NCBI GenBank assembly: GCA_029667085.1
Contig: JARUHJ010000002.1
Location: 248,001 to 312,000 of the forward strand
Direction: 5' to 3'
Origin: Deltaproteobacteria bacterium IMCC39524
GTDB taxonomy: Bacteria; Desulfobacterota; Desulfuromonadia; Desulfuromonadales; BM103
Length of the DNA stretch: 64,000 bases
Shown here: piece by piece, positions 24,892 to 44,057 of the stretch
How the letters are laid out: each line of letters begins with the position of its first letter
Position numbering within the stretch: position 1 is the stretch's first letter
The notes under the pieces: generated by a model
Seen by the model: only the letters and a program-made list of their open reading frames with translations
Database searches by the model: none
What the model was told of the DNA's origin: nothing
Made by a program: the position numbers and the translations under genes

Positions 24892-24930
24892 CCTCTCTCT
24901 CCTGATATGGATACCGTCTGGCTTGTATTT

Positions 24931-26445: not shown

Positions 26446-26464
26446 AATCGCCTGATCGTTTAGC

Positions 26465-26626: not shown

Positions 26627-27523
26627 ATGGACACTTTTTTACAACAGTTAGCAAACGGCCTGACTATAGGCAGTATGTTTGCCCTGGTTGCGCTCGGCTA
26701 CACCATGGTCTACGGCGTTATGAGATTGATCAACTTTGCTCATGGCGACATGGTTGCGGCCTCTGCCTTTGTTGGCCTGACAATCTATACTCAGGTGATG
26801 GGACAGGCGACCTCTCTGGTCGCAGTTATTGTTATCTTCCTGTTGACTGCGGTTGCCATGGCGATTGTCGGCATTATTCTCGAACGGGTTGCCTATCGTC
26901 CCTTACGCGAAGCACCGCGTTTGTCGGCGGTGGTCTCGGCACTTGGTGCCTCACTGGTTATCCAGAACGGCATCATGCTGATCTGGGGGCCGCGGATGCG
27001 CATCTTCCCGGAGTTGGTTCCGCAGGTCTACTGGGATCTCGGCGGAGTGGTGATCAGCCTGATCCAGGTGATTATCCTGGTGTTGTCGCTGGTTTTGATG
27101 GTTACCCTCTACCTGTTCGTTGAAAAGACCCGCATGGGTGCAGCGATCCGCGCCTCCTCCATCGATCAGGATGCCGCCCGACTGATGGGCATCAACGTCA
27201 ACAGTGTTATCGCCCTTATTTTTATCATCGGCTCCTCTCTGGGTGCTGTCGGCGGTCTCTTTATCGGCCTCTACTATCGCGGCATTACCTTTAATATGGG
27301 CTGGCAATACGGTCTCTACGCTTTTATCGCTGCAATTCTGGGCGGCATTGGCAATATCCCGGGTGCTATGCTCGGCGGGATGCTGCTTGGCCTGTTCAAT
27401 GCCTTTATCGCCGGTTACGTTTCCAGCACATGGGCTGATGCCTTTACCTTTATCCTGCTGATTTTAATCTTGATTGTCCGCCCGACCGGCATCCTCGGCG
27501 AGCGGGTTGCGGAGAAAGTCTGA
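26627..27523 (+). CDS. livH: Branched-chain-type amino-acid ABC transporter permease LivH
   Basis: 298-residue inner-membrane permease with about eight helices. The conserved N-terminus LANGLTIGSMFALVALGYTMVYGV and the EAA-like loop LMGINVNSVIALIF are LivH hallmarks, as is the ATILGGIGNIPGAMLGG-like sequence near residue 245 (here AAILGGIGNIPGA). The ATG at 26627 follows GGAG; upstream in-frame codons lack a ribosome site. The stop overlaps the livM ATG by one base. Confidence 0.93.
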   Translation: MDTFLQQLANGLTIGSMFALVALGYTMVYGVMRLINFAHGDMVAASAFVGLTIYTQVMGQATSLVAVIVIFLLTAVAMAIVGIILERVAYRPLREAPRLSAVVSALGASLVIQNGIMLIWGPRMRIFPELVPQVYWDLGGVVISLIQVIILVLSLVLMVTLYLFVEKTRMGAAIRASSIDQDAARLMGINVNSVIALIFIIGSSLGAVGGLFIGLYYRGITFNMGWQYGLYAFIAAILGGIGNIPGAMLGGMLLGLFNAFIAGYVSSTWADAFTFILLILILIVRPTGILGERVAEKV

Positions 27524-28479
27524 TGAAAGAATTGCAGAAATTTGCTTATCCGGTCTTCTTCGTCGTTATGGCCGTTCTGCCGCACATGCTTGACGACCGT
27601 TGGCAGGCGGTGGCGATAACATTCCTGATCTTTGCCGTGGTGGCTCTATCTCAAGATATTATCCTCGGTAAGTGCGGTATGTTTAATATGGGCCAGGCGC
27701 TCTTTTTCGGCATGGGTGCTTACACCACGGCAATCCTCAATAACGAGTACGGTTGGTCGATCATCGCCACGATACCGCTGGCGATCATCATCCCGGCCGT
27801 GTTCGGTATCCTGCTGGCCGGTCCGATCGTCCACCTGCGCGGCGACTACCTGCTGGTCGTCACTATCGGCTTCAACATTGTTTTTGTTCAGGTCCTGCAG
27901 AACAATCTCGGCGGCGTGACAGGTGGCCCCAACGGTATCTTTGGCCTCGATTCACTGAGCTTTTTAGGCTATGACCTGATGAGCCAGATTTCGGTCTACT
28001 ATTTTGCTTTCATCGTCCTGTTGCTGACTCTATGGGTGATGCACAACCTGGCTGGGAGTAAACCGGGACGTGCCATGCATTATCTCCGTGAGGATCAGCT
28101 TGCGGCCGAAAGTATCGGTATCAACACCCGCGTCTACAAGATCTTCTCCTTCGGTCTTGGTGCCGGGATTGCCGGACTGGCCGGAACCGTCTATGCCACC
28201 CAGTATTCAGCTGTTAGCCCGGAGGCCTTCGAGTTTATCCAGTCGGTACTCTTCTTCAGTATCGTTCTGGTTGGCGGATCTTCGGTGCCCGGAGTCCTGA
28301 TCGGGGTGTTCGTGATGTTCGTGCTGCCGGAAATTTTCCGCGAGTTCGCCACCTGGCGTTACTTCATCTTCGGTTTCGCTATGATTGCGGCGATGATTAT
28401 GCGGCCACGTGGTATCTGGCCGGCCACTTTCGGTAAAATTCCCAAGTTTTTGATCAAGGAAAATAATCATGGCGCATAA
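27523..28479 (+). CDS. livM: Branched-chain-type amino-acid ABC transporter permease LivM
   Basis: 318-residue second permease. It shows AVVALSQDIILGKCGMFNMG, GPIVHLRGDYLLVVTIGF, the cytoplasmic coupling loop AMHYLREDQLAAESIGIN and GLAGTVYATQYSAVSPEAF, and has about nine membrane helices. Its start overlaps the livH stop and its end overlaps the livG start by 11 bases, so the four genes are translationally coupled. Confidence 0.93.
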   Translation: MKELQKFAYPVFFVVMAVLPHMLDDRWQAVAITFLIFAVVALSQDIILGKCGMFNMGQALFFGMGAYTTAILNNEYGWSIIATIPLAIIIPAVFGILLAGPIVHLRGDYLLVVTIGFNIVFVQVLQNNLGGVTGGPNGIFGLDSLSFLGYDLMSQISVYYFAFIVLLLTLWVMHNLAGSKPGRAMHYLREDQLAAESIGINTRVYKIFSFGLGAGIAGLAGTVYATQYSAVSPEAFEFIQSVLFFSIVLVGGSSVPGVLIGVFVMFVLPEIFREFATWRYFIFGFAMIAAMIMRPRGIWPATFGKIPKFLIKENNHGA

Positions 28480-29248
28480 TGAACTGATATTGACCGACGT
28501 CACCAAGCGCTTCGGGGGATTGACCGCCGTTGACGCTTTAAGTTTCAAGGTTGAAAGTGGCCAGATTTACGGCATCATCGGCCCCAACGGGGCGGGTAAG
28601 ACCACGGTCTTCAACTGCATTACCGGCATCTACAAATCGGAAGAAGGCTCAGTTCTCTGGCGTGGTGAAGAGATCCGCGGCAAGACCCCCTACCAGATTG
28701 TGGATCGTGGCATCGTCCGTACCTTCCAGACCATCCGCCTGTTCGGCCAGATGTCGGTCGCCGAAAACATCATGAGCGGCCGTCACATCAAAAGCACGCA
28801 GAGATGGTGGCACGGCATCATCCCAACTCCCGGGAAAAAGCGAGATGAGCTGGAAAACTGGCAGAAGGTTGAAGAGCAACTCGACTTCTTCAAGTTGAGC
28901 GAGTTTGCTGCTACTCCGGTTGGATCATTGCCATACGGTCTCCAGCGGCGGGTGGAGATTGCCAGGGCGATGGCCGTTGAACCGACCCTGCTGATTCTCG
29001 ATGAACCGGCAGCTGGTCTTAACGACAAAGAGACCCTGGAACTTTTGGAAACTATCTTTAAAATCCGTGACAAAGGTGTCACCGTGCTGCTGATTGAGCA
29101 TGATATGGACATGGTTATGGAAGTGACTGACTACCTGACGGTGATCAACTTCGGCAAAAAGATTGCCGAGGGCACCCCTGAAGAAATCCAGAAGAACCCG
29201 GCCGTCATCGAGGCCTACCTGGGAAGTGAGGATGACGACGATGAGTAA
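28469..29248 (+). CDS. livG: Branched-chain-type amino-acid ABC transporter ATPase LivG
   Basis: 259-residue ATPase. Walker A GPNGAGKTT at about residue 38, Q-loop region, degenerate signature LPYGLQRRVEIARAM, Walker B LLILDEPAAGLN and the H-loop LLIEHDMDMVM. The signature PYGxQRR, rather than LSGGQ, is usual for LivG. It overlaps livM. The C-terminus is acidic (EDDDDE). Confidence 0.94.
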   Translation: MAHNELILTDVTKRFGGLTAVDALSFKVESGQIYGIIGPNGAGKTTVFNCITGIYKSEEGSVLWRGEEIRGKTPYQIVDRGIVRTFQTIRLFGQMSVAENIMSGRHIKSTQRWWHGIIPTPGKKRDELENWQKVEEQLDFFKLSEFAATPVGSLPYGLQRRVEIARAMAVEPTLLILDEPAAGLNDKETLELLETIFKIRDKGVTVLLIEHDMDMVMEVTDYLTVINFGKKIAEGTPEEIQKNPAVIEAYLGSEDDDDE

Positions 29249-29960
29249 CGACGTTTTGTTTGAAATAAAAGATCTGGAAGTCTCCTACGGCAGCATCGCC
29301 GCCATCAAGGGGATCTCCCTCGAAGTGCACAAGGGTGAAATTGTTACCATCCTGGGAGCGAACGGTGCCGGTAAAACCACGACCATGCGCACCATCAGCC
29401 AGCTTCTCAAGGCCAAAGCCGGTTCGATTACTTTTAAAGGGCACGAGCTGACGAAATTGCCTGCCCACAAGATCGTTAAGCTGGGCATCAGCCATTCTCC
29501 GGAAGGGCGACGCGTGTTCGGTATTTTGACGGTCGAAGAGAACCTGATGCTCGGTGCCTTTTCCCAGAGCAAAATGGATCGTCAAACCCTTGCCTGGGTC
29601 TACGAACTTTTCCCTCGTCTGCAGGAACGCCGCAAGCAGTTGGCAGGAACCCTGTCCGGTGGCGAGCAGCAGATGCTGGCGATCGGTCGCGCCTTGATGA
29701 GTAATCCCGAGATGGTGCTGCTCGATGAGCCTTCTCTTGGAATTGCACCGATCCTGGTCAAGGCGATCTTCAAGCAGATCAAGGAGATTGCCAAAAAAGG
29801 TGTGACGGTGCTGCTGGTTGAGCAGAACGCCAAGGCTGCACTGAAGCTGGCTGATCGTGGCTATGTACTCGACGTCGGCAAAATCGCCCTCTCTGGGACC
29901 TCGGAAGAACTGTTGGCTTCGGAGAAAGTACAGGAAGCCTACCTGGGAAAGAAACATTAA
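29241..29960 (+). CDS. livF: Branched-chain-type amino-acid ABC transporter ATPase LivF
   Basis: 239-residue ATPase, partner of LivG. It shows LEVSYGSIAAIKGISLEVHKG, Walker A GANGAGKTTT, the LivF-type HSPEGRRVFGILTVEENLMLGA, signature LSGGEQQMLAIGRAL, Walker B MVLLDEPSLGIAP and the H-loop VEQN. ATG 29241 is chosen because GAGG lies nine bases upstream; ATG 29232 is in frame too. It overlaps the end of livG by eight bases. Confidence 0.94.
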   Translation: MSNDVLFEIKDLEVSYGSIAAIKGISLEVHKGEIVTILGANGAGKTTTMRTISQLLKAKAGSITFKGHELTKLPAHKIVKLGISHSPEGRRVFGILTVEENLMLGAFSQSKMDRQTLAWVYELFPRLQERRKQLAGTLSGGEQQMLAIGRALMSNPEMVLLDEPSLGIAPILVKAIFKQIKEIAKKGVTVLLVEQNAKAALKLADRGYVLDVGKIALSGTSEELLASEKVQEAYLGKKH

Positions 29961-30002: not shown

Positions 30003-30809
30003 ATGAACTTAAAAGACCTTCTGGTGTATATCGATTTAAGCTCAACCTGCTCAACCAGGCTGGCCACCGCAATCCAGTTGGCCCAGCAGCAGCAGGCCAA
30101 GCTGACTGGTCTCTACACGATTCCACCCCATCGGGCCAGCGACTTTGAACAACCCTATAAGCTGGCGGACCAGGCTAAGCTGAAGTTCCTGCAAACGGTC
30201 GAACAAGCGGGGCTGGAATCGGAGTGGATTTGTGCCGACAGCTCCAGAAACAATCTTGATCTGGTCCAGTCGCTCAATCTTTACGCCCATTATCGCGACA
30301 TGCTGATCGTCAGCCAGACTGACCATGAAGCAAAGCAACAGTCGACACCCAGTGACCTCCCGGAAAAAGCGGTTCTGGGGGCTGGCCGTCCCGTGCTGGT
30401 CGTCCCCTACGCCTGTGACGCCCGAACAATCGGCAAACGGGTGATGCTGGTCTGGCGTGGTGGCCCCGAATCTTCACGGGCCATGCATGATTCGATGCCA
30501 CTGCTGCGCGCGGCCGATTCTGTTCACGTCATATCAATCCAGGGTTACGGGGGCGATGAGGCCTACGAATCTCACAACGCCGATATTTGCAGTCATTTGC
30601 GACACTACGATATCAATGCCATTGCCGAAAAGCACGTTACAGCAGGGCTCAGTATCGGTGACTTGCTGCTCAACCGCTGCGCCGACGAGGGGATCGACCT
30701 GATGGTCCTCGGCGCCTTTTCCCAGTTCCGTCGTGGCAACCAGATCCTTGGCGATGTCGGTCGTTATCTGCTGCAGTCAATGACCGTCCCGGTGCTGATG
30801 TCACACTAA
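30003..30809 (+). CDS. Universal stress protein, two-domain UspA type
   Basis: 268 residues with two Usp-like halves. The second half ends in the nucleotide-binding signature VLGAFSQFRRGNQILGDVGRYLL, equivalent to G-x2-G-x9-G(S/T), followed by VPVLM. It lies 42 bases after livF and 25 bases before the second regulator, suggesting it belongs to the same sigma-54 operon. A Usp in an amino-acid transport operon may tie uptake to energy state; the actual role is unknown. Confidence 0.82.
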   Translation: MNLKDLLVYIDLSSTCSTRLATAIQLAQQQQAKLTGLYTIPPHRASDFEQPYKLADQAKLKFLQTVEQAGLESEWICADSSRNNLDLVQSLNLYAHYRDMLIVSQTDHEAKQQSTPSDLPEKAVLGAGRPVLVVPYACDARTIGKRVMLVWRGGPESSRAMHDSMPLLRAADSVHVISIQGYGGDEAYESHNADICSHLRHYDINAIAEKHVTAGLSIGDLLLNRCADEGIDLMVLGAFSQFRRGNQILGDVGRYLLQSMTVPVLMSH

Positions 30810-30834: not shown

Positions 30835-32253
30835 ATGGACAGGAGTATCCAGGAATTGACCTGGGAACATGATGCGATCATCGATTCCTCCTCAGATGGC
30901 CTTTTTGTCTGCGATGGTGCCGGTCTTATCCTGCGTGTTAATCCCGCCTCTCAACGAATCAACAACGCCACTGCTAAGCAGTTGGTTGGACGTTCCTATC
31001 TCGACGTTGCCGAAGAAGGGTTGGTTATTCTTCCCTCGGCAGCCCTTGAAGCCATCAAGTCCCGTAGTGTGGTCAGCCTGCTGCAGGAAAACCGTTTCGG
31101 TCGAAAACTTATTTCTACGGCGACCCCGGTGTTTGATGATGCCGGCGAACTGATTCGCGTGGTGGTTAGCGAACGCGATATTACTGAAACGGATCGTCTA
31201 CAGCGGCAGTTGGAAGAACAACAGGCGATTGGTGATCATTTTCGTCACCAGATACAAGAGTTACAGGAAGAGTTTCTCTCCCGTCAGCGGGTGATTGCCA
31301 AAAGTCCTTGTATGGTCAAGGCGCTCAAACAGGCGCTGAAAGTCAGTGAAGTCGACTCGACGGTTCTGATTCTCGGTGAATCTGGGGTTGGCAAGGGTCT
31401 GGTCGCTGACCTGATTCACAAGAACTCCCGCCGTAGCGACAAGCCCATCATAAAAATCAATTGTGGCGCCATCCCGGAAACGCTTATCGAAGCCGAATTG
31501 TTTGGCTACGAAAAAGGTGCCTTTACCGGTGCCTCTGCCAGCAAGCCGGGCCATCTTGAACTCGCTGATGGTGGCACCCTGTTTCTCGATGAAGTCGCCG
31601 AACTCCCGCTGGCTTCGCAGGTCAAGTTGCTACGTTTCATGGAGGATGGTGTGGTTACCCGTCTGGGAAGCACTCAGAGTCGGAAAGTTGATGTCCGTCT
31701 GCTTGCCGCAACCAATCGTGATCTCGATCAGTTGGTTGCTTCCGGCCAATTTCGCACCGATCTATTCTACCGTTTGAGCGTTATCCCTTTGCGTGTCCCG
31801 GCTCTACGTGAACGTAAGGAATGTCTGATTGCATTGATTCGCTCCTACATCGATCATTTTGCTTTACGGTCCAATGTTTCAAGAAAACTGAGTGCTGCAG
31901 CTCTCGACGTCCTGGTTCATTACCATTATCCCGGTAATGTGCGTGAATTGATGAATATCTGCGAGCGTTTGGTCGTGATGTCTGAAACTGAGATGCTCGA
32001 TGTGGGGGATCTGCCTCAGGATGTGGTTGCGTGGTCCAGTGGGGAAGGTTGTCTCGTGGAAAGCAGTTGGCCCGACGGGATGAACATGACGCAAATTCTG
32101 GAGAGCGTTGAAAAGCGTGTACTTTCCGAAGCCAGTAAGCGCTATCGAAAACAGCAGGACATTGCCGAAGCTCTTGGTATGAGCCAGCCTACGGTCGCCA
32201 GAAAGCTGCAGAAGTATGGGGTCAGTTCTCACAGTGCGAGAGTTGAAAGTTAA
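30835..32253 (+). CDS. Sigma-54-dependent transcriptional activator, PAS-AAA+-HTH
   Basis: 472 residues; a paralogue of the product of the gene at 23149 but lacking its first PAS domain. PAS at about 10-125 (IIDSSSDGLFVCDGAGLIL to VVSERDITE), AAA+ at about 150-385 (GESGVGKG, GAFTGA, LFLDEVAELPLASQ), and a C-terminal Fis-type HTH (DIAEALGMSQPTVARKLQKYG). GGAG precedes the ATG. As last gene of the transporter operon it may amplify its own induction. The near-identical recognition helices of the two regulators suggest they could bind the same palindromes. Confidence 0.92.
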   Translation: MDRSIQELTWEHDAIIDSSSDGLFVCDGAGLILRVNPASQRINNATAKQLVGRSYLDVAEEGLVILPSAALEAIKSRSVVSLLQENRFGRKLISTATPVFDDAGELIRVVVSERDITETDRLQRQLEEQQAIGDHFRHQIQELQEEFLSRQRVIAKSPCMVKALKQALKVSEVDSTVLILGESGVGKGLVADLIHKNSRRSDKPIIKINCGAIPETLIEAELFGYEKGAFTGASASKPGHLELADGGTLFLDEVAELPLASQVKLLRFMEDGVVTRLGSTQSRKVDVRLLAATNRDLDQLVASGQFRTDLFYRLSVIPLRVPALRERKECLIALIRSYIDHFALRSNVSRKLSAAALDVLVHYHYPGNVRELMNICERLVVMSETEMLDVGDLPQDVVAWSSGEGCLVESSWPDGMNMTQILESVEKRVLSEASKRYRKQQDIAEALGMSQPTVARKLQKYGVSSHSARVES

Positions 32254-33745: not shown

Positions 33746-34120
33746 TCGGTTCGGCACTCTTCGTTTTTGAGTCTTCTGGTTGTCCACTTTGCTCAAGTGA
33801 GGGTTGTTCTAAAGAAAACCTTTCGCTACAGAGACACAGAGGACACAGAGAAATTCAAGAAACAATCAGGTGTCCCCTGCCCCCTCTGAGTCTCTAGCGA
33901 GAGAAACGAACGGGAGGCTAGGGGAACTGTTAATCCTGACAATAGCTGCTGGAGTGAAGTAGATCGCCAGATTGAGTTTTCTTCTCCCAGCGAATGCGGT
34001 GGTGAATAAAAAATACAAAAATGAATAATAACCTGAACTGTTGCTCCTGCCTCGTTTCTTCTACACTGTAAATAGTTAACGATTATAAGCTTTTGTGATT
34101 GTCTCTCGGCTTCTTTCGGT
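33746..34120. other. Region upstream of the hypD promoter with repeat remnant
   Basis: No gene is seen. Near 33828-33860, ACAGAGACACAGAGGACACAGAGAAA resembles a widespread non-coding repeat, recalled here only in part. An imperfect dyad ATGCGGTGGTGAAT at 33994-34007 has one mismatch to ATGC-N6-GCAT, 113 bases upstream of the sigma-54 promoter; it is too weak to call an operator. 34000-34095 is AT-rich and could bend. Confidence 0.35.
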
Positions 34121-34136
34121 TGGTACTCTTCTTGCT
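34121..34136 (+). promoter_or_regulatory. Sigma-54 (-24/-12) promoter of hypD
   Basis: TGGTAC-TCTTC-TTGCT with GG at 34122-34123 and GC at 34134-34135, ten bases apart. The leader to hypD would be about 145 bases. Confidence 0.78.
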
Positions 34137-34291: not shown

Positions 34292-36748
34292 ATGTCAAAA
34301 GAGAGAGACTTAAAGGTGGTCCCCCAGCGTCATGCTGATGCCGAGGGGAACTTTTATTCACCAATCAAGAACGCCATCGGGCCTGGAATGAATGAGCGAA
34401 TTCAGCGTCTACGCAAGTTGAGTGTTGAGACAGAGCCGAGTCTTTCTATTGAACGAGCCCTGCATGAGACTGCTTTTTATAAAGAGAATTATGGTAAGCA
34501 CTCGACGCCGATGCTGCGCGCCTTGAATTTTCTCGATCATTGTCGGAATAAAACCCTCTATCTCGGAGAAGATGAGCTGATCGTTGCCGAACGCGGCCCG
34601 CAACCCAAGGCGGTGCCGACCTTCCCTGAGTTGACCTGTCACAGCGTTGAAGACTTTCTCGTCCTCAACACCCGCGACCAGCAACGTTACACCATCAGCG
34701 ATGAAGACGTTGAAACCTATGCCCGTGAGGTGATCCCTTATTGGCAGGGCAAGACAATCCGTGAGCGGATCTTCAGCCATGTCCCGGATGAATGGCGGGC
34801 GGCTTACGAGGCGGGGCTCTTTACCGAGTTCATGGAGCAGCGCGCACCTGGCCATACGGCCCTCGATGGTCAGATCTATGTTAAGGGAATGCTCGATTAC
34901 AAACGGCAGATTGCGATTGAAATTGCAGCCCTTGATTATCTCAACGATCCGGAAGCCACCGACAAGTTCGAAGAGCTCAAGGCGATGGACGTCTCCTGCG
35001 ATGCGGTGATTGTTTTTGCCGAGCGTCATGCCGATCTTGCCGAAGATTTAGCTGCCAGTGAGAGCGATCCTAAGCGTGTTGCCGAGCTGCAGAAAATCGC
35101 TGAAGTCTGCCGCTGGGTTCCGGCCAATGCGCCACGCACGTTTCACGAAGCGATCCAGATGTACTGGTTTGTTCACCTTGGCACCATTACCGAACTCAAC
35201 GGTTGGGATGCCATGAACCCCGGTCACTTCGACCAGCACTTGGCACCTTTCTATGAAGCTGAGCTTGCTGCTGGCACTTTGACCCGCGAGCAGGCCAAGG
35301 AGTTGCTCTGCTGCTTCTGGATCAAGGTCAATAATCACCCGGCGCCGCCCAAGGTGGGGGTTACAGCCCGTGAGAGCGGCACCTATAACGATTTCACCAA
35401 CATCAATATCGGCGGCATCACCTGTGACGGTCAAGACGGCGTCAGTGACGTCTCCTACATCATGCTCGAGGTGGTCGAAGAGCTGCACATCTTGCAGCCG
35501 GGCAACTCCGTACACGTCAGCAGAAAGACACCGGACCGTTTCCTCGAGGCCGCCTGTAAGGTGATTCGTCAGGGGCACGGCTACCCGTCAATCTTTAATC
35601 CGGATGTTTACGTGGAGGAGCTGCTGCGTCAGGGCAAGTCTCTCAAGGATGCTCGAGAGGGCGGCTGCAGCGGCTGCATCGAGGTCGGCGCATTCGGCAA
35701 GGAGGCCTACGTTCTGACCGGCTACCTGAACGTGCCGAAGATCCTCGAAGTGACTCTGAATAACGGTGTCGACCCGGTGACAGGCAAACGGGTGGGCCTC
35801 GAGACGGGAGACCCACGTGACTTTGCCTGTTATGAAGATCTCTACGAGGCATTTAACAAGCAGTTGAATTTTATTGTTGATACCAAGGTCAGGGTCAGCA
35901 ACTACATCGATCGTATGTTCGCCAAGTATGCTCCGGCACCTTTCCTGTCGGTTGTGATCGAGGATTGCATTAGCAAGGGTCGGGATTATTACGATGCTGG
36001 GCCGCGCTATAATACCAATTATATCCAGTGTACCGGTCTTGGTACGACCACCGACAGTCTCTCTGTGCTCAAAAAACATGTCTTCGAAACCAAGGCGTTC
36101 AGTATAGAGCGCCTCCTTGACGCAGTTGCAAAAAATTTCGAGGGTGAAGAGTTCGTGCGTCAGACGGTTCTCAACAAGACGCCTTTCTTTGGTAACGACG
36201 ATGGTTACGCCGATGATATCGCCCTGCAGATTTATGCTGACTTGTTTTCTGCAATCGATGGCAAGCCGAATGTTAAGGGGGAAACCTTTCATCTCAACAT
36301 GCTCTCTACGACATGCCATATCTATTTCGGCAAGGTGATGGGGGCGACGCCCAATGGGCGTTTGGCCGGCAAGTCGATTTCCGATGGCACTTCGCCGTCT
36401 CATGGCGCAGATACCCATGGCCCGTCAGCCGTGGTGCGGTCATTGACCAAGCTTGATCACACATTGTCTGGAGGCACTTTACTTAACCAGCGCTTCTTGC
36501 CGAGCCTGCTCAAGCGGGACGAGGATATTGCAAGGTTGGGCCAGTTGGTGCGCAGCTATTTCTCTCTGGGCGGTCATCACATTCAGTTCAATATCGTTGA
36601 TACGGCGACCTTGAAAGCAGCCCAGGAGACCCCCGAGGATTATAAGGACCTGCTGGTGCGTATGGCCGGTTACAGCGACTACTTCAATGACATGAACGCA
36701 GACCTGCAGCAGGAAGTGGTTGAGCGTACGGAAAACGAGTCGTTCTGA
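34292..36748 (+). CDS. hypD: Glycyl-radical trans-4-hydroxy-L-proline dehydratase
   Basis: Glycyl-radical enzyme of 818 residues. The thiyl cysteine lies in SGCIEVGAFGKEAYVLTGY: Cys462, Glu464 (+2) and Tyr478 (+16) stand exactly as Cys434, Glu436 and Tyr450 in known HypD, which dehydrates trans-4-hydroxy-L-proline to P5C. The radical glycine is Gly793 in RMAGYSDYFNDMN, 26 residues from the end, as usual. These spacings, not just general homology, separate it from glycerol, choline and propanediol lyases. It is followed one base later by its activase. P5C dehydrogenase downstream supplies the next step. It needs anaerobic conditions. Confidence 0.88.
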   Translation: MSKERDLKVVPQRHADAEGNFYSPIKNAIGPGMNERIQRLRKLSVETEPSLSIERALHETAFYKENYGKHSTPMLRALNFLDHCRNKTLYLGEDELIVAERGPQPKAVPTFPELTCHSVEDFLVLNTRDQQRYTISDEDVETYAREVIPYWQGKTIRERIFSHVPDEWRAAYEAGLFTEFMEQRAPGHTALDGQIYVKGMLDYKRQIAIEIAALDYLNDPEATDKFEELKAMDVSCDAVIVFAERHADLAEDLAASESDPKRVAELQKIAEVCRWVPANAPRTFHEAIQMYWFVHLGTITELNGWDAMNPGHFDQHLAPFYEAELAAGTLTREQAKELLCCFWIKVNNHPAPPKVGVTARESGTYNDFTNINIGGITCDGQDGVSDVSYIMLEVVEELHILQPGNSVHVSRKTPDRFLEAACKVIRQGHGYPSIFNPDVYVEELLRQGKSLKDAREGGCSGCIEVGAFGKEAYVLTGYLNVPKILEVTLNNGVDPVTGKRVGLETGDPRDFACYEDLYEAFNKQLNFIVDTKVRVSNYIDRMFAKYAPAPFLSVVIEDCISKGRDYYDAGPRYNTNYIQCTGLGTTTDSLSVLKKHVFETKAFSIERLLDAVAKNFEGEEFVRQTVLNKTPFFGNDDGYADDIALQIYADLFSAIDGKPNVKGETFHLNMLSTTCHIYFGKVMGATPNGRLAGKSISDGTSPSHGADTHGPSAVVRSLTKLDHTLSGGTLLNQRFLPSLLKRDEDIARLGQLVRSYFSLGGHHIQFNIVDTATLKAAQETPEDYKDLLVRMAGYSDYFNDMNADLQQEVVERTENESF

Positions 36749-36749
36749 T

Positions 36750-37658
36750 ATGCCGCAACCGCTGGTTTTTGACATCAAGCGTTACTCGATCAACGATGGT
36801 CCGGGTATCCGGGCCACAGTCTTCTTCAAGGGCTGTCCGCTGAATTGTCAGTGGTGTCATAATCCCGAAAGTATTTCACCAAAAGTCCAAAAACTCTTTA
36901 CCGCAGCCAAATGCATCGGGTGCGGTGAGTGCTGCCGCGCTTGCCCTGTAGATGCTTGCCGCCTGGCTCCTGATGGTGTGGTCACTGACGGTGATCTTTG
37001 TTCTCTCTGTGGTCAATGTGCTGAAGTTTGCCCGACGCTGGCCACGCAGATGTCGGGGCGCTACTATTCGGTCGCAGAACTTCTTCAGGTTGTTGAAAAG
37101 GAGCGGCCCTTCTTCGATCAATCAGGAGGCGGTGTTACCTTTTCCGGGGGCGAGCCGCTGCTCTATCCCGAGTTCCTGATTGAACTTCTCGAGGCGTGCG
37201 GCAGGCAGGGCGTCCACCGGGCTGTAGATACCTCTGGCTTTGTTAAAAAAGAGGTGCTGCTTAAGGTCGCACAACACACGGATCTGTTCCTTTATGACCT
37301 GAAGATGGTCGATGCAGAAAAACATAAGCGTTACACGGGAGTCGATAATCGCTTGATTCTCGATAACCTGGTGGCGCTGGCTGAATATGGCTCAGAGGTC
37401 CAGATCCGAGTTCCTCTGATAGGTGGCGTGAATGATGATGACGACAGCGTTGCTGCCATGGCCACTTATGTTGCCGCTTTGCCTGGAGAGAAGAGGGCGG
37501 TAAGTCTTCTCCCTTTTCATGATGTCGCCAGGGGTAAGGATGAGAAGCTTGGCCAGGAACGTGATCTTGCTGCGCTGCATGAGCCTGGAGCGGATGCTTT
37601 GCAAAGAGTGATTGAGATCTTTGCTGGGTATGGTTTGACTGCCACGATAGGTGGCTGA
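36750..37658 (+). CDS. Glycyl-radical enzyme activase for HypD
   Basis: Radical-SAM enzyme of about 302 residues that creates the glycyl radical on HypD. The N-terminal RYSINDGPGIRATVFFKGC contains the first Cys of CxxxCxxC (GCPLNCQWCHNPE), followed by a ferredoxin-like insert with two 4Fe-4S motifs, CIGCGECCRACPVDAC and CSLCGQCAEVCP, and GGVTFSGGEPLLYPEF. It has the usual layout of activases for GREs other than PFL. ATG 36750 lies one base after the hypD stop; an upstream GTG is possible but overlaps hypD. Specificity for HypD is inferred from adjacency. Confidence 0.9.
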   Translation: MPQPLVFDIKRYSINDGPGIRATVFFKGCPLNCQWCHNPESISPKVQKLFTAAKCIGCGECCRACPVDACRLAPDGVVTDGDLCSLCGQCAEVCPTLATQMSGRYYSVAELLQVVEKERPFFDQSGGGVTFSGGEPLLYPEFLIELLEACGRQGVHRAVDTSGFVKKEVLLKVAQHTDLFLYDLKMVDAEKHKRYTGVDNRLILDNLVALAEYGSEVQIRVPLIGGVNDDDDSVAAMATYVAALPGEKRAVSLLPFHDVARGKDEKLGQERDLAALHEPGADALQRVIEIFAGYGLTATIGG

Positions 37659-37673
37659 ATATTTATAGTAAAT

Positions 37674-37687
37674 ATGCGTAAATGCAT
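37674..37687. promoter_or_regulatory. Palindromic activator site ATGC-N6-GCAT, copy 3
   Basis: ATGCGTAAATGCAT, 16 bases after the activase stop and 317 bases upstream of the P5C dehydrogenase sigma-54 promoter. Confidence 0.7.
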
Positions 37688-37782
37688 TTAAAATGCGGAT
37701 ATATTCTAGAATCCCCTTTTGCATAAATATATAATAGTTCAATGAAATCAAGAATTTACAGATTTTTATGCGACATCTTGTT

Positions 37783-37796
37783 ATGCATTAATGCAT
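37783..37796. promoter_or_regulatory. Palindromic activator site ATGC-N6-GCAT, copy 4
   Basis: ATGCATTAATGCAT, a perfect 14-base palindrome, 208 bases upstream of the sigma-54 promoter. Together with copy 3, spaced by 109 bases centre to centre, it forms a tandem pair as is usual for hexameric activators. Confidence 0.7.
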
Positions 37797-38004
37797 TGAG
37801 GTCGCCCTGGTAAATCCCTTTTCTTCCCTGTTTGCCCCTCCTTGAAAAGAAAAAACAATATTTCCGTCTATTTATTAGGAGCTTGTTGTTTTTCACAGTG
37901 TCTTTAAAAGTGCAGTGTTTCTAGTCTTTTAGCCCTTTTATCTGCTTCTGGAGGTTGCTTTCCTGGGTGAGAATAACCCGATCTCCTGATTGAAAATTTC
38001 GGCT

Positions 38005-38020
38005 TGGCATCTTGCTTGCT
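38005..38020 (+). promoter_or_regulatory. Sigma-54 (-24/-12) promoter of P5C dehydrogenase
   Basis: TGGCAT-CTTGC-TTGCT, with GG at 38006-38007 and GC at 38018-38019, ten bases apart. It matches the consensus as well as the transporter promoter, with the same -24 hexamer. Confidence 0.88.
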
Positions 38021-38124
38021 CTTATCACTATGTCAGAATGATCTGGTACGCACTGCGGCCGGTCTTGACTCCTGCGTATAAACGATTTTTTAACATAGAA
38101 ACTCTTACGAGAAAGGTGCCCATC

Positions 38125-39768
38125 ATGAACCTGTTGAACAATGCCATCCTTAAGGTCCCGACCCCTGTCAATGAGCCTGTCTACAGCTACGCTCCCGGAA
38201 CTCCGGAACGCGATCTGCTCAAGGCGGCGATTGAAGAAATCACCAACAAGAAAGTTGAGATTCCCCTGATTATCGGTGGTAAAGAAGTTCGTACCGGTAA
38301 AATGGGCAAGGTTGTCATGCCTCATGACCATCAGCATGTTCTCGGTGAGTACCACCTGGGCGGTGAAAAAGAGATCAATATGGCGATTGATGCTGCCATG
38401 GCCGCCAAGGAAGATTGGGCCAACCTGCGTTGGGAAGAGCGCGCTGCGATCTTTCTTAAAGCTGCCGAGCTGCTTTCCGGTAAGTATCGTTACATTATGA
38501 ATGCCGTCAGCATGCTTTCCACCAGCAAGAGCGCCTACCAGGCAGAGATTGATGCAGCCTGCGAGCTGATCGACTTTTTGCGCTTCAACGTGTACTACGC
38601 GCAGCAGGTTTATACCGACCAGCCCATGTATTCGTCGAAAGGTCTCTGGAACTTCGTGCAGCAACGTCCTCTCGAAGGCTTTGTCTTTGCCGTAGCTCCA
38701 TTCAATTTCACCGCTATCGCAGGCAACCTGGCAACAGCGCCGGCCATTATGGGTAACACGATTTTGCTTAAGCCGGCTTCGTCCTGTGTCTATACGCCTT
38801 ACCTCTTTATGCAGATTCTCAAAGAGGCCGGGATGCCCGATGGCGTCATCAACTTTGTGCCGGGTCCCGGTTCGATGGTCGGCAAGGTCTGTCTTGATCA
38901 TAAAGATCTCGGCGGCATTCACTTCACCGGCTCAACAGGCGTCTTCCACCAGATGTGGCAAACCGTCGGCGAGAATATTGCCAAGTACAAGTCGTATCCG
39001 CGCATCGTTGGTGAAACAGGCGGCAAAGACTTTATCGTGGCCCATGAGAGTGCCAATGCCGAACAGCTGACAACAGCGATCATCCGCGGGGCTTTTGAAT
39101 TCCAGGGGCAGAAATGTTCTGCGGCTTCCCGTGCGTATATCCCTAAAACACTCTGGGGGCCGGTTCGTGAGAAGCTCGAAACCGATATGGCCACGATTAA
39201 AATGGGTAAGACCAACGACTTCAGCAACTTCTTTAATGCTGTTATCGACAAGAATGCTTTTGCAACCATTACCGAGTTTATCGATTTCGCCAAAGAGGCT
39301 TCCGATGCTGAAGTTATCATCGGTGGCGGTTACGACGACAGCCAAGGTTACTTCATTGAGCCGACCGTGATCCTGACCAGTAACCCGCATTTCCGCACCA
39401 TGGAAGAAGAGATCTTCGGCCCGGTTATGACGATCTATGTCTATGAAGATGATAAGTATGAAGAAGCTCTTGAACTCTGCGACAAAACCTCGATCTACGC
39501 TCTGACCGGCGCGGTGTTTGCCACCCAGCGTGAAGCTGTGAGTCTCGCTATGACCAAGCTGGAAAATGCCGCAGGAAACTTCTACATTAACGACAAGCCG
39601 ACCGGTGCTGTGGTCGGTCAACAACCTTTCGGTGGGGCACGGGCTTCCGGTACCAACGATAAGGCCGGTTCTTACCTGAACCTGGTTCGCTGGGTGTCGC
39701 CGCGCACCATCAAGGAAACCTTTGAGGCGCCGACTCACTTCGCCTACCCATTCATGGACGCTGAATAA
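38125..39768 (+). CDS. pruA: 1-pyrroline-5-carboxylate dehydrogenase (L-glutamate gamma-semialdehyde dehydrogenase)
   Basis: NAD-dependent aldehyde dehydrogenase of 547 residues oxidising glutamate semialdehyde (open P5C) to glutamate. The sequence is of the ALDH4A1 (eukaryote-like) branch: LGGEKEINMAIDAAM, PFNFTAIAGNLATAP, catalytic Glu in GETGGKDFIVAH, catalytic Cys in FEFQGQKCSAASRAYIP, and GPVMTIYVYEDD. It is a stand-alone enzyme, not the fused PutA. ATG 38125 was chosen with AAAGG upstream and since the long leader contains the sigma-54 promoter. Pairs with PRODH 58 bases downstream and completes the HypD pathway. Confidence 0.94.
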   Translation: MNLLNNAILKVPTPVNEPVYSYAPGTPERDLLKAAIEEITNKKVEIPLIIGGKEVRTGKMGKVVMPHDHQHVLGEYHLGGEKEINMAIDAAMAAKEDWANLRWEERAAIFLKAAELLSGKYRYIMNAVSMLSTSKSAYQAEIDAACELIDFLRFNVYYAQQVYTDQPMYSSKGLWNFVQQRPLEGFVFAVAPFNFTAIAGNLATAPAIMGNTILLKPASSCVYTPYLFMQILKEAGMPDGVINFVPGPGSMVGKVCLDHKDLGGIHFTGSTGVFHQMWQTVGENIAKYKSYPRIVGETGGKDFIVAHESANAEQLTTAIIRGAFEFQGQKCSAASRAYIPKTLWGPVREKLETDMATIKMGKTNDFSNFFNAVIDKNAFATITEFIDFAKEASDAEVIIGGGYDDSQGYFIEPTVILTSNPHFRTMEEEIFGPVMTIYVYEDDKYEEALELCDKTSIYALTGAVFATQREAVSLAMTKLENAAGNFYINDKPTGAVVGQQPFGGARASGTNDKAGSYLNLVRWVSPRTIKETFEAPTHFAYPFMDAE

Positions 39769-39776
39769 TATCAATC

Positions 39777-39797
39777 GGGGGCAGCTGAACTGCCCCC
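39777..39797 (+). other. Hairpin between P5C dehydrogenase and proline dehydrogenase genes
   Basis: Eight-base-pair stem GGGGGCAG / CTGCCCCC with loop CTGAA and no U-run. It resembles the intercistronic hairpin after livK and may stabilise the upstream mRNA or slow readthrough. Confidence 0.5.
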
Positions 39798-39826
39798 AAT
39801 AACCAGTCATTGAGTTGGAGGACGCT

Positions 39827-40741
39827 ATGTCCCTGTTTAACTTCCTTGTTTCAAAAACCATCATGCACGTGCCGGGGCCGATCGTTGGCTTTTTTGCCAG
39901 GGGTTATATTGCCGGAGATGATCTTTCTGCGGCAGTCAGAACCACGAAAGAGTTGAATGGCAAAGGCATGGTCGCAACCATCGATATCCTCGGCGAGTTC
40001 ATCAAGACCAAAGAAGAAGCCAATTTCTTCAAGCAGCAGTGTCTGGATATTCTCAATGGAATCGACAAGGAAGACCTCGATGCCAACCTGTCGCTCAAAC
40101 CGACCCAGCTGGGGCTGGAACTCGACAAAACTTTCGCCTTTGAAAATATTCGCGAGATCGTCGCCCTCGCAGCGAGCCTGAACAATTTTGTTCGTATCGA
40201 CATGGAAGACCACTCATGCACTGACGATACCCTTGAGTTCTTCCGGACTCTCCGGGAGGAGTTCCCGGGACATGTTGGCGTAGTCGTTCAGTCTTACCTG
40301 CGCCGTACGATTGATGACATCGAGGATTTGAGTGACGGCCTGCTTAACTTCAGGCTCTGTAAGGGGATTTATAACGAGCCACGTGAGGTCGCTTACAAGG
40401 ATATGGCGATCATCAATCGCAGCTTTGTGAAATGCCTTGAAAAAATGTTTGAGAAAAAGGCCTACGTTGGTATCGCCACTCATGATGAAAAGCTGGTTTT
40501 CGAATCGGAGCAACTGATCAGGGAGTTTGGGCTGACACGTGAGGAATACGAGTTCCAGATGCTGCTTGGCGTTGACCCCGAGTTGCGGGACCTTCTGGTT
40601 AAACGGGGGCATAAACTGCGGATATATGTTCCATACGGAAAATCATGGCTGCCCTATTCCAGACGCCGTCTCAAGGAGAATCCGAGCATCGCTCAGCATG
40701 CTTTGAGACAGATGCTCGGCATGAAGTCAAAATCTGTCTGA
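39827..40741 (+). CDS. Proline dehydrogenase
   Basis: FAD enzyme of 304 residues oxidising L-proline to P5C, passing electrons to quinone. TIM-barrel motifs are RIDMEDHSCTDDTLEFF, LCKGIYNEP, GIATHDEKLV, YEFQMLLGV and YVPYGKSWLPYSRRRL, the last binding the substrate carboxylate. GGAGG precedes ATG 39827. As in Thermus and Bacillus, PRODH and P5CDH are separate genes next to each other. With HypD it makes P5C a shared intermediate. No proC (P5C reductase) is in the window, so the direction is oxidative. Confidence 0.94.
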   Translation: MSLFNFLVSKTIMHVPGPIVGFFARGYIAGDDLSAAVRTTKELNGKGMVATIDILGEFIKTKEEANFFKQQCLDILNGIDKEDLDANLSLKPTQLGLELDKTFAFENIREIVALAASLNNFVRIDMEDHSCTDDTLEFFRTLREEFPGHVGVVVQSYLRRTIDDIEDLSDGLLNFRLCKGIYNEPREVAYKDMAIINRSFVKCLEKMFEKKAYVGIATHDEKLVFESEQLIREFGLTREEYEFQMLLGVDPELRDLLVKRGHKLRIYVPYGKSWLPYSRRRLKENPSIAQHALRQMLGMKSKSV

Positions 40742-40911: not shown

Positions 40912-42228
40912 ATGACTCAACAAGCAACACTTAAAACCATATACCGCCTCTGGTGGCCGCTTGCCGTGACCTGGTTGATGATGGCGATCGAAGGGCCTTA
41001 CCTGGCGGCGATTATCGCCCGCATGGGGGAGAGTGCCACGAACCTGGCGGCCTACGGGGTTGCTTATGCCTTCGGCTTGATCACGGAAGCACCGGTGATT
41101 ATGCTTTTGAGTGCCTCAACGCGGTTGGCCAGAGGTCGCAGCGATTACCTGCGCTTGCGTTCATTCTCTGTGGCATTGTGTAGCCTGGTTACGTTGTTTC
41201 TACTGCTGTTGCTTGTCCCTTCTGTTTTTAACCCTTTAACGACCACTCTTCTTGGTTTGTCCACCGCTATAGCCACTCATGTGAATCAGGCTTTATGGTT
41301 ACTTCTGCCGTGGCCGGCGGCGATCGGTATGCGTCGATTTTACCAGGGTGTACTGATCGCCCACCACCAACCGGGGAGGGTCGCTGTCGGCACTGCCGTC
41401 AGACTTATTAGTATGTCTTTAACGGCATACCTTCTCTGGTCTCTAAGTTTTTTGCCTGGTGCCAGCTTGGGCGCTTGTTCGTTAAGTGCCGGCGTGGTCG
41501 CCGAAGCCTTGGCGACCCGTTGGCTGGCCCGTCGTGCGATTACAACATCACTGAAGGAAACAGGTGATGCGGTTGTCATGTCATCCTACGCCGCCTTGAG
41601 TCGTTTCTATCTGCCCCTGGCCATGACCCCGTTGATCGGCCTGAGCGTTCATCCTGTGGTGACTTTTTTTCTCGGTCACAGTTATAAGCCGCTTGAGTCA
41701 TTGGCGATCATGCCGGTGCTTTATGCTCTGACATTCCTGTTTCGTGCGCTCGGATTATCTTATCCAGAGGTGGCTATCGCCACTTTGAAGGATGGTCAGC
41801 AGAATCGCTTGGTGGTCAGAAAGTTTGCCATCTATCTCGCAATAGCTCTAGGCGGAGGGTTGTCCTTGATCGCCTTTACTCCACTGAATGTGGTCTGGTT
41901 TGCAACTCTTTCCGGGCTCTCCGCGGAGTTGGTGTCGTTGGCAATACCGCCGTTACAGATCATGGCGCTCTTCCCGGCCTTGACTGTTGCTATCGGTTAT
42001 CAGCGCGCTATTTTGATTGATGCCGGAAGAACGCTTCCTGTGACATTGGCAACGGCTCTTGAGGCTGTGGGAATTTTTTCAATTCTGGCAGCGCTTGTAC
42101 TATACTCAGCGCTGCCTGGAGTGACGTCTGCTGCACTTGCTTACCTGCTTGGTCGCCTTCTGGCTCTTCTTTACCTGTGCTGGCCCTGCGCCGGTGTCCA
42201 GGGGCGAAACGAACAAGTGATCACCTGA
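40912..42228 (+). CDS. Multi-helix membrane transporter, MATE/ANKH-like
   Basis: 438 residues with about twelve hydrophobic segments. The N-terminus RLWWPLAVTWLMMAIEGPYLAAIIAR and AYAFGLITEAPVIMLLSASTRL recall the MATE superfamily and especially the ANKH-type branch; no substrate can be named. There is no clear ribosome site. It lies right behind an inverted repeat and 23 bases before two EamA permease genes, so the three may form a transporter operon. Confidence is high that it is a membrane transporter, low on the family. Confidence 0.65.
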   Translation: MTQQATLKTIYRLWWPLAVTWLMMAIEGPYLAAIIARMGESATNLAAYGVAYAFGLITEAPVIMLLSASTRLARGRSDYLRLRSFSVALCSLVTLFLLLLLVPSVFNPLTTTLLGLSTAIATHVNQALWLLLPWPAAIGMRRFYQGVLIAHHQPGRVAVGTAVRLISMSLTAYLLWSLSFLPGASLGACSLSAGVVAEALATRWLARRAITTSLKETGDAVVMSSYAALSRFYLPLAMTPLIGLSVHPVVTFFLGHSYKPLESLAIMPVLYALTFLFRALGLSYPEVAIATLKDGQQNRLVVRKFAIYLAIALGGGLSLIAFTPLNVVWFATLSGLSAELVSLAIPPLQIMALFPALTVAIGYQRAILIDAGRTLPVTLATALEAVGIFSILAALVLYSALPGVTSAALAYLLGRLLALLYLCWPCAGVQGRNEQVIT

Positions 42229-42250: not shown

Positions 42251-43156
42251 ATGTCTCAAGATAGTTCACGCTCCGGGGTCTGGCTGGTTCTGATGGCCGC
42301 CATGCTCTGGGGAACCACAGGAACCTCGCAGGCTTTCGCTCCTGCCGGTTTCGATCCGATGGTTATTGGAACCTTGCGTCTGGCGATCGGTGGCGCCTCG
42401 ATGCTGTTGATTGTGCTACTGACCAGTGGCATGCCACAGCTGAAAAGCTGGCCCCTCAAGGCAACGCTTTCCGCGGCCCTGTTTACTGCGCTTTATCAAG
42501 CCTTCTTTTTTGCCGGTGTCGCTAAAACCGGAGTTGCCGTTGGGACTATTGTAGGTATCGGTAGTGCACCGGTTGCTGGTGGTATGCTTGGTTATTTCTT
42601 CAGGGGGGAGCGACCTGGAAGGAGTTGGTTTGTCGCAACGACTCTCGCGATTATCGGTTGCGTCGTTTTAACCCTTAGCAGCGGTGGTGATGTTGTTATT
42701 GATCTGATGGGTGTCGCCCTCGCTATCGGTGCCGGTGTTGCCTATGCAGCCTATACTCTGGTGATCAAGGGTTTGTTAGAAAAACACGACGCGAATGCTG
42801 TTATCGCGGTTGTCTTCTGTATTGGTGCCCTGTTCCTTGCTCCTCTGCTAATCGGCCGTGAAATGGCCTGGTTGGCGGCCCCTCGTAGTATTGCTGTCAT
42901 TCTTCACCTTGGCCTGGTAACGGCCGCTCTGGCCTATTGGCTGTTTGCCCGTGGCTTGCAGCGAGTTCCGGTTGCGACTGCGGTGACCTTGACCCTGGCA
43001 GAGCCCTTGACCGCAGGTCTTTTGGGCCTGTTGGTCCTGGGCGAACAACTGAACCCGGTTTCCTTTGTTGGGATATCCCTGATTTTCTCCGGTTTGGCGG
43101 TCCTCACTCTGGGGGGACGCGCGACCCCGGAAGTCCCGGCGGAATTTGGAGGTTGA
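42251..43156 (+). CDS. EamA-family (DMT) transporter 1
   Basis: 301 residues with ten predicted membrane helices in two EamA repeats (about 10-140 and 152-290). It contains MAAMLWGTTGTSQAFAPAG, typical of the family, and AEPLTAGLLGLLVLGEQLNP. These proteins export amino acids or metabolites (RhaT/RhtA-like). GGGAG precedes the ATG. It is followed by another EamA gene four bases after its stop. Confidence 0.88.
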   Translation: MSQDSSRSGVWLVLMAAMLWGTTGTSQAFAPAGFDPMVIGTLRLAIGGASMLLIVLLTSGMPQLKSWPLKATLSAALFTALYQAFFFAGVAKTGVAVGTIVGIGSAPVAGGMLGYFFRGERPGRSWFVATTLAIIGCVVLTLSSGGDVVIDLMGVALAIGAGVAYAAYTLVIKGLLEKHDANAVIAVVFCIGALFLAPLLIGREMAWLAAPRSIAVILHLGLVTAALAYWLFARGLQRVPVATAVTLTLAEPLTAGLLGLLVLGEQLNPVSFVGISLIFSGLAVLTLGGRATPEVPAEFGG

Positions 43157-43160
43157 CCGC

Positions 43161-44057
43161 ATGGTCAATCAACGCAAGGCCTATCTCTACGCAATCATCA
43201 CGGTTTTAATCTGGTCAACGGTCGCTTCAGCGTTCAAGATTTCCCTGCGGACATTGTCGCCTGCACACCTGTTGTTATACGCCAACCTGACTTCTGTCTT
43301 GCTGCTTGGAGTTATCTTGCTGTGCCGCCGCGAGCTGGGGATGGCCTTGCCGAAGAACCGTCAGGAGCTACTGCGTTCAGCGGCTTTGGGAATACTAAAC
43401 CCCTTCCTTTATTACCTGATTCTGTTAAAAGCCTACGATCTGATCCCCGCCCAGGAAGCTCAACCACTTAACAGCATCTGGGCGATCACGCTCTCAATTC
43501 TCGCCGTACCATTACTCAAACAGAAGCTTTCTTTCCGTGAGATGCTTGCGATTCTGGTCAGCTTTTGTGGTGTTGTGGTGATTTCAACCCACGGCGATCC
43601 GTTTGGGATGAATTTTTCCGATCCCCTTGGGGTGGCTCTGGCCTTGGGGAGCACGATTGTCTGGGCGCTCTACTGGATTTTCAATGTCAGGGACAGTAGA
43701 CCACCTCTGGCAGGCCTCTTTATGAACTTCCTCTGTGCACTGCCACTGACCCTGGTTTATTGCCTAGTTTTTACCGAAATGCAGAGGCCCGATCTGACAG
43801 GCTTCCTCGGGGCGGTCTATGTCGGCTGTTTCGAGATGGGAATATCTTTTGTGCTCTGGTTGCAGGCGCTTAAATACAGTGCCAGTACAGCGAAGATCAG
43901 TAGTATCGTTTTCATGTTACCTTTTTTCTCTCTACTCATGATTCATTTTCTTGTTGGCGAAGAGATTTTGCCGTCGACTTTTTATGGGTTAGTTTTGATT
44001 GTGGCGGGATTGGTTTTGCAGCAGATCGTAAAGAACAAAGCCGTTGATATTGAATAA
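43161..44057 (+). CDS. EamA-family (DMT) transporter 2
   Basis: 298 residues, again with two EamA repeats and ten helices: AIITVLIWSTVASAFKISLR and the C-terminal VFMLPFFSLLMIHFLVGEEI. ATG 43161 follows GGAGG; an in-frame TTG 43146 overlaps the previous gene and is less likely. It is distinct in sequence from its neighbour, so probably not a recent duplication. It may act as an exporter; the substrate is unknown. Confidence 0.87.
   Translation: MVNQRKAYLYAIITVLIWSTVASAFKISLRTLSPAHLLLYANLTSVLLLGVILLCRRELGMALPKNRQELLRSAALGILNPFLYYLILLKAYDLIPAQEAQPLNSIWAITLSILAVPLLKQKLSFREMLAILVSFCGVVVISTHGDPFGMNFSDPLGVALALGSTIVWALYWIFNVRDSRPPLAGLFMNFLCALPLTLVYCLVFTEMQRPDLTGFLGAVYVGCFEMGISFVLWLQALKYSASTAKISSIVFMLPFFSLLMIHFLVGEEILPSTFYGLVLIVAGLVLQQIVKNKAVDIE

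Follow-up and report, generated by a model that had tools for sequence, protein, structure and literature searches.

A gene island with a predicted role in hydroxyproline and proline use

The window analysed here is a 64,000 nt stretch of DNA from Deltaproteobacteria bacterium IMCC39524 (contig JARUHJ010000002.1, positions 248,001 to 312,000), a bacterium related to Desulfuromonas, and represents 1.7% of the 3.78 Mb genome. At positions 34292–40741 it carries adjoining genes for the glycyl-radical enzyme HypD (hydroxyproline dehydratase), the HypD activase, 1-pyrroline-5-carboxylate (P5C) dehydrogenase (P5CDH) and proline dehydrogenase (PRODH). This arrangement was proposed in a preliminary description of the locus, and both the coordinates of the open reading frames (ORFs) and family searches bear it out. 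The co-regulated island spans approximately 23.1–44.1 kb of the window and is larger than the hypD-to-PRODH unit first described (Table 1). It also includes genes for two sigma-54 enhancer-binding proteins (EBP1 and EBP2), livKHMGF-type (branched-chain-type) amino-acid ABC transporter genes upstream of hypD (25324–29960) and three further transporter genes (T1 to T3). The most familiar anaerobic users of hydroxyproline are gut fermenters, in which proline is the end product. The island is likely to be a respiratory counterpart of this hydroxyproline-to-proline route of gut clostridia. Published work is cited below for the passages that bear on these genes.

Table 1. Genes and regulatory sites of the island, in window coordinates.
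Feature	Position	Strand	Evidence
EBP1, PAS – sigma-54 activator (AAA+) – helix-turn-helix (HTH) enhancer-binding protein	23149..24891	+	Pfam Sigma54_activat 229.6 bits, PAS_4, HTH_50
Motif B palindrome (11/12), upstream of livK	24930..24945	+	dyad motif scan
Sigma-54 promoter-like site of livK	25161..25176	+	TGGCATCAGCCTTGCT
LivK-type periplasmic binding protein	25324..26445 (ORF listed from 25132; start ATG 25324)	+	Peripla_BP_6 196.9 bits
LivH-type permease	26543..27523	+	BPD_transp_2; LivH model 231.9 bits, under its cut-off
LivM-type permease	27523..28479	+	BPD_transp_2; LivM model 201.2 bits, under its cut-off
LivG-type ATPase	28469..29248	+	ABC_tran, BCA_ABC_TP_C
LivF-type ATPase	29163..29960 (listed ORF; real start probably further in)	+	ABC_tran
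Universal stress protein (USP) inside Liv gene run	30003..30809	+	Usp 43.1 bits
EBP2, second PAS – sigma-54 activator – HTH protein	30835..32253	+	Pfam; PrdR model 355.8 bits
Motif A-like palindrome (10/12), 93 bp ahead of hypD sigma-54 site	34012..34027	+	dyad motif scan
Sigma-54 promoter-like site of hypD	34121..34136	+	TGGTACTCTTCTTGCT
HypD	34292..36748	+	NF043068, PDB match, active-site alignment
HypD activase (radical SAM)	36750..37658	+	best match NF043069 (under cut-off); TIGR02494 passed
Motif B palindrome (10/12), upstream of P5CDH	37673..37688	+	dyad motif scan
Motif B palindrome (11/12), upstream of P5CDH	37782..37797	+	dyad motif scan
Sigma-54 promoter-like site of P5CDH	38005..38020	+	TGGCATCTTGCTTGCT
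P5C (L-glutamate gamma-semialdehyde) dehydrogenase, P5CDH	38125..39768	+	TIGR01236; PDB 4idm
Monofunctional proline dehydrogenase, PRODH	39827..40741	+	Pro_dh PF01619; Thermus PRODH 2ekg
T1, membrane transporter of MOP (MATE/MurJ/Wzx) fold	40912..42228	+	predicted structure; no Pfam match
T2, EamA-type transporter	42251..43156	+	EamA 134.5 bits
T3, EamA-type transporter	43146..44057	+	EamA 127.8 bits

HypD and its activase

The HypD protein of the window passes the NCBIfam equivalog model NF043068 with 1179.2 bits (cut-off 1100). Its best match in PDB is the characterised HypD of Clostridioides difficile (6vxc/6vxe, 975.5 bits), to which it is approximately 51% identical, and the next PDB match scores 495.3 bits. 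When the two proteins are aligned, all 14 active-site positions tested are identical. In C. difficile numbering these are F152, R156, H160, W277, D278, K326, S334, D339, F340, C434, E436, Y450, T645 and G765, the last of which we take to be an active-site position. Apart from G765, the residues come from PMC7077986, where Asp278 and Asp339 are described as strictly conserved in HypD and not in other eliminases. Their equivalents in the window protein are Asp306 and Asp367, and Ser334 corresponds to Ser362. Cys462, Glu464 and Tyr478, which had been recognised as a probable HypD active site from their spacing, align with Cys434, Glu436 and Tyr450. This comparison with a characterised dehydratase had been proposed as a check of the assignment, and because all 14 residues are kept, it places the protein with HypD and not in another glycyl-radical clade.

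The same 14 positions are identical in all 133 rows of a wider alignment, in which 131 other loci join the two proteins above, although some genomes are present twice and the columns of C434, E436 and G765 are partly circular because the rows were picked by motifs containing these residues. One locus (L134, genome G217) was left out of the alignment; its HypD reads as two overlapping fragments, each in its own frame, and looks broken or misassembled. By family and active site, the window protein is a true HypD with a predicted dehydratase activity. Action of this HypD-like enzyme on some other substrate, for example another hydroxyproline isomer, is very improbable: identity to the C. difficile enzyme is only ~51% and the activase scores under its equivalog cut-off, whereas every residue tested, including Asp278 and Asp339, is the same. 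Elsewhere in the class, six genomes (G082, G084, G095, G100, G189 and G192) encode a related group of glycyl radical enzymes that score ~680–730 bits against the HypD model, under its cut-off.

The activase ORF was listed from TTG 36720, and ATG 36750, one base past the end of hypD, is the likelier start. Its best match is the HypD-activase equivalog NF043069 (344.7 bits, under the cut-off of 425), it exceeds the cut-off of the general activase model TIGR02494 (331 bits against 174.35) and it adjoins hypD, for which reasons we assign it as the HypD activase. An activase gene lies behind hypD in 75 of 80 named HypD loci, these being the best 80 of 556 confirmed stretches.

P5C dehydrogenase and proline dehydrogenase

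The P5CDH ORF was listed from TTG 37990, whereas its start is ATG 38125. The protein passes the equivalog TIGR01236 (779.7 bits, cut-off 613.6), and its best PDB match is the P5CDH structure 4idm (620.1 bits). PRODH, which begins at ATG 39827, matches Pro_dh PF01619 with 110.6 bits (cut-off 27) and is closest to Thermus PRODH (2ekg, 201.3 bits), while scoring under the Thermus equivalog NF045947 (240 bits, cut-off 500). The two enzymes are separate proteins, as in Thermus, and share with PutA-type proline catabolism the sequence from proline through P5C to glutamate. The island differs from PutA-type catabolism in that HypD is joined to it, so that hydroxyproline would enter at P5C. In many other genomes of the class the P5CDH match has 30–35% identity and lies in frames of ~1000 residues that appear PutA-like by eye.

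Gene order and co-occurrence in relatives

HypD scores over the cut-off in 50 of 194 genomes of the class, 32 of them in the window's order, Desulfuromonadales, and 18 in a second lineage. HypD regions were also taken from 40 further genomes of the class, including 31 of this order (L095–L125). Named Desulfuromonadales loci with enough flank usually have the order hypD-activase-T1-T2-T3, and T1 is present in 25 of the 31 additional loci of the order, several of the other six being short or cut. In the same genus, L096 and L097 carry EBP, Liv, USP, hypD, activase, P5CDH, PRODH and T1–T3, with EBP2 preceding hypD in L097. In other families or genera of the order (L106 and L024/L125) a single co-directional array runs EBP, P5CDH, PRODH, Liv, USP, hypD, activase, T1–T3. 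P5CDH is divergent from hypD in L026 and lies ~8.5 kb upstream in L023. Altogether, P5CDH occurs in the fetched flank of hypD at 11 distinct places (window, L006, L007, L023, L024/L125, L026, L096, L097, L098, L099 and L106). Such association in different arrangements is as expected for genes of one pathway.

The two enzymes also occur together when genomes rather than neighbourhoods are compared. Window-type HypD is found in 38 of 98 genomes of the order, counting 32 over the cut-off and six with partial genes (G120, G157, G169, G190, G188 and G136) that fall under it and were counted by score per residue. All 38 have window-type P5CDH (at least 64% identical over the matched part), against 8 of the 60 other genomes. 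Among 40 HypD genomes, comprising the window's own and 39 behind named loci of several phyla, 33 have P5CDH over the TIGR01236 cut-off and two lack any match. The hypD operon is present in Malonomonas rubra DSM 5091, Desulfuromusa kysingii DSM 7343 and Pelovirga terrestris, and since these are named strains, growth and expression tests would be direct.

The second HypD lineage (L083–L094 and L126–L133) is 54–57% identical to the window HypD in its aligned members and has the activase before hypD; the window's P5CDH, PRODH and T1–T3 are not found in its fetched flanks. Three loci (L015, L023 and L026) in assemblies titled Xanthomonadales or Lysobacterales encode HypD 83–85% identical to that of the window.

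Sigma-54 promoters

Sigma-54 promoters had been proposed before hypD and before P5CDH. A loose scan allowing two mismatches performed at chance level (34 matches vs 36.7) and was replaced by a strict form, TGGYAY-N5-TTGCW, applied to orthologous upstream regions; the case for these promoters therefore rests on conservation. The strict form, which was chosen after the sites were seen, occurs four times in the window against 0.28 expected from 60 Markov sequences. Three of the sites precede hypD, P5CDH and livK, the last of these being new relative to the first observation. The fourth (51714–51729, minus strand) lies ~1.1 kb before a sodium:solute symporter gene (48652–50580, minus strand).

Within 400 bp upstream, the strict site is present in 28 of 39 distinct hypD regions, 8 of 10 for P5CDH and 4 of 7 for livK, compared with a rate of at most 0.001 in shuffled sequence. 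Conservation at orthologous positions thus upholds both promoters. Over the same distance no strict site was found before T1 (0/27), PRODH (0/8) or activase (0/92). Widening the region to 500 bp gives a strict match in 3 of 27 T1 upstreams, and a near-consensus site precedes PRODH in L014.

Palindromes and two paralogous activators

A palindrome, TATTCA-N4-TGAATA (motif A), precedes hypD. Its distance to the sigma-54 site that follows is mostly 73 to 116 bp, and several hypD loci have two copies ~19 bp apart. A second form, TATGCA-N4-TGCATA (motif B), is found upstream of P5CDH and livK. The two differ in one base per half-site and can be written jointly as TATKCA-N4-TGMATA. In a dyad search the commonest dyad occurred in 11 of 37 upstream regions and in at most 3 in 20 shuffles. 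For this search and for a first motif count, 20 and 19 loci, respectively, were excluded as duplicates, among them L003, which is a separate genome; the dyad search, not the first count, also excluded both copies of the L024/L125 genome. The frequencies that follow count each upstream region once, as distinguished by its final 150 bases, include L003 and L024/L125, and concern a motif derived from these same sequences.

Palindromes matching at least 10 of 12 positions are present at 27 of the 28 hypD upstreams that have a sigma-54 site (20 nearer A, 7 equal between A and B) and at 1 of the 11 that do not. Motif B occurs in 8 of 10 P5CDH upstreams and 3 of 7 for livK, with one further livK region tied; neither palindrome was found in the 27 T1 upstreams. 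Shuffled sequence gave 0.02–0.06 for these counts. In the window, motif B lies at 24930, 37673 and 37782, and in weaker form at 23103. Across the 3.78 Mb genome, TATGC-N6-GCATA is matched exactly at 24930 and nowhere else; with up to one mismatch there are 56 places (47 in a reversed control), of which at least 4 are in the window.

The best NCBIfam match of EBP1 is PrdR (NF041552, 396.9 bits), and EBP2, which is 62.7% identical to EBP1, scores 355.8 bits against the same model. Sigma-54 control of prd genes in Clostridiales involves a PrdR site of the form TGT-N10-12-ACA (PMC6615313), and PrdR and sigma-54 promoters have been described for proline metabolism in a Bacillus (PMC4428206). The island shares with these systems PAS – AAA+ – HTH activators and sigma-54 sites. 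It differs in that EBP1 and EBP2 are far under the PrdR cut-off of 795 bits, its palindromes are not of the PrdR form, it has two paralogous activators, and it includes hydroxyproline genes.

The recognition helices of the two activators differ, EBP1 types having NQSTIARKL and EBP2 types SQPTVARKL. In L106 the activator carries SQPTVAR and the P5CDH site is motif A, while in L024 the activator carries NQSTIAR and the P5CDH site is motif B. From these few cases, the recognition helix may set the one-base difference between A and B, and the two motifs with their paralogous activators provide a small case of regulator divergence. A hybrid A/B site also lies at L135 6885–6900 (C4:400885–400900), ~115 bp before genes read as a TRAP transporter; the region has no strict sigma-54 site, and it was considered as a further regulon member, possibly a chance match.

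Transporters

The USP gene found within the Liv run of the window also occurs in L096, L097, L106, L110, L125 and others. T1 is a membrane protein of 438 residues with no match in Pfam and no sequence match in PDB. Its predicted structure (mean pLDDT 86.2, 12 sequences) matches MATE, MurJ and WzxE chains with a best E of 2.9e-8 and TM (query) of 0.58–0.78 among the 50 rows listed, and on this modelled fold T1 is a MOP-superfamily transporter. T1 (at least 49% identical) is present in 38 of 194 genomes of the class, 34 of which have HypD. In three of the four without HypD (G153, G080 and G045), P5CDH is found 1 to 16 kb from T1 and shares its contig and strand; T1 therefore seems tied to proline or P5C, and not to hydroxyproline alone. 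In L010, L016, L019 and L025 the protein behind T3 was read by eye, with no family search, as a glutamate dehydrogenase, which fits glutamate as a product.

Proposed pathway and alternatives

We consider it probable, at roughly 0.72, that the island takes up proline and hydroxyproline and oxidises both to glutamate in the absence of oxygen under sigma-54-dependent activation. The amino acids would enter through LivKHMGF and perhaps also through T1–T3. Activated HypD, assigned by family and active site, would dehydrate hydroxyproline to P5C, and PRODH would oxidise proline to P5C, passing electrons probably to quinone. P5CDH, a clear member of its enzyme family, would then oxidise the P5C of both branches to glutamate, which would be deaminated and oxidised further; three ELFV-dehydrogenase matches over the cut-off elsewhere in the genome are candidates for the deamination. 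EBP1 and EBP2 would bind the two related palindromes and thereby activate the promoters of livK, hypD and P5CDH, with proline and hydroxyproline as their probable ligands. Hydroxyproline is the predicted substrate of HypD and a presumed inducer of these genes. Its use through respiration is suggested by kinship and by 23 matches in the genome to a multihaem-cytochrome model, some of which share a frame and some of which are under the cut-off.

Several observations weigh against this reading. The preliminary description had noted that no proC, the gene for P5C reductase, is in view, which is true within the window; however, one proC is present on a different contig of the genome. Moreover, in the same-genus locus L096 proC lies directly upstream of the island's EBP. 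P5C could therefore be reduced to proline, and the argument from an absent proC fails. P5CDH is not beside hypD in most Desulfuromonadales loci, and the Fisher p of ~1e-19 for co-occurrence of HypD and P5CDH ignores kinship. A strict sigma-54 site is missing from 11 of 39 hypD upstreams, that of Desulfuromusa kysingii (L025) among them. Where hypD lacks a site in L096, L024 and L106, it is directly behind Liv/USP genes, and there is a strict site at livK (L096) or P5CDH (L024), or a near-consensus site at P5CDH (L106, whose hypD match starts at residue 31, falls outside the 39 upstreams and was assessed by separate site inspection). Adjacency of this kind offers no explanation for copies such as that of D. 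kysingii. Finally, the motif A copy in the window (34012) is weak at 10/12, and across the genome the motif is unenriched (101 places vs 135 in the reversed control).

The proC genes raise the alternative that HypD supplies P5C to ProC as a salvage route to proline for protein synthesis, the PRODH and P5CDH neighbours serving proline catabolism only. C. difficile and other Clostridia do pair HypD with P5C reductase (PMC7077986, PMC9044972), and the position of proC in L096 would suit such a role. Nevertheless, we find this explanation unlikely, because the proC of this genome lies away from the island, hypD and P5CDH are linked in several gene orders and share a promoter type, and an uptake system with substrate-type regulation suggests nutrient use. 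The preliminary reading, in which P5C is oxidised rather than reduced, is supported in part, by this linkage, by co-occurrence and by the conserved sigma-54 sites.

Fermentation of the Stickland type or of glutamate, with proline reductase rather than respiration as the electron sink, is more improbable still. The best-known bearers of HypD ferment in this manner (PMC9044972), and the EBPs resemble PrdR, an activator of proline reductase genes (PMC6615313), whereas the multihaem-cytochrome matches fit respiration. A search for the proline reductase PrdA matched none of 40 genomes, and none of 14 control genomes either.

Beyond the oxidative pathway itself, we put forward, at about even odds, a broader proposal for Desulfuromonadales. 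These bacteria would possess a dedicated sigma-54 island for oxidative hydroxyproline and proline use, in which the EBPs probably divide hydroxyproline from proline through the A and B palindromes, and in which a MOP-type family without a Pfam model and two EamA carriers would handle substrates or products.

Relation to known systems

Aerobic degradation of hydroxyproline by way of an epimerase and later enzymes also serves nutrient use, with other enzymes and intermediates. The clostridial system of HypD, activase and ProC, as in C. difficile, shares with the island HypD, the activase, P5C as product and the 14 active-site positions. There, P5C derived from hydroxyproline is reduced to proline (PMC7077986, PMC9044972), whereas the HypD of the window has P5CDH and PRODH beside it, with proC in another part of the genome. 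The island is further distinguished by its hypD-activase order, its HypD identity and its own transporters and sigma-54 activators. The HypD passages of PMC11574389 assign the enzyme to Firmicutes and Bacteroides. For PRODH and P5CDH, an enrichment of sigma-54 control is reported in Bacilli (PMC12316311), whose passages on Desulfuromonadia treat other functions; in the excerpts of a Desulfovibrio sigma-54 paper, proline is mentioned only as a residue (PMC4641369). We rate the enzymes and the sigma-54 control of proline catabolism (in Bacilli) as known and, relative to the open-licence papers searched, the oxidative direction, the added transport set and the distinct regulatory layout as new.

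If the proposed pathway is correct, hydroxyproline from collagen and cell walls would directly supply electrons to anaerobic respiration in sediments. Polymers rich in hydroxyproline would then have a predicted route into anaerobic respiration, by way of glutamate and its oxidation, in an order whose members respire anaerobically.

Flanking genes

Directly ahead of EBP1, a minus-strand gene (21189–22469) encodes a protein with a serine dehydratase alpha domain. Directly behind the island are genes for an aldehyde ferredoxin oxidoreductase-type protein (44421–46262) and then an aldehyde dehydrogenase family protein (46289–47872).

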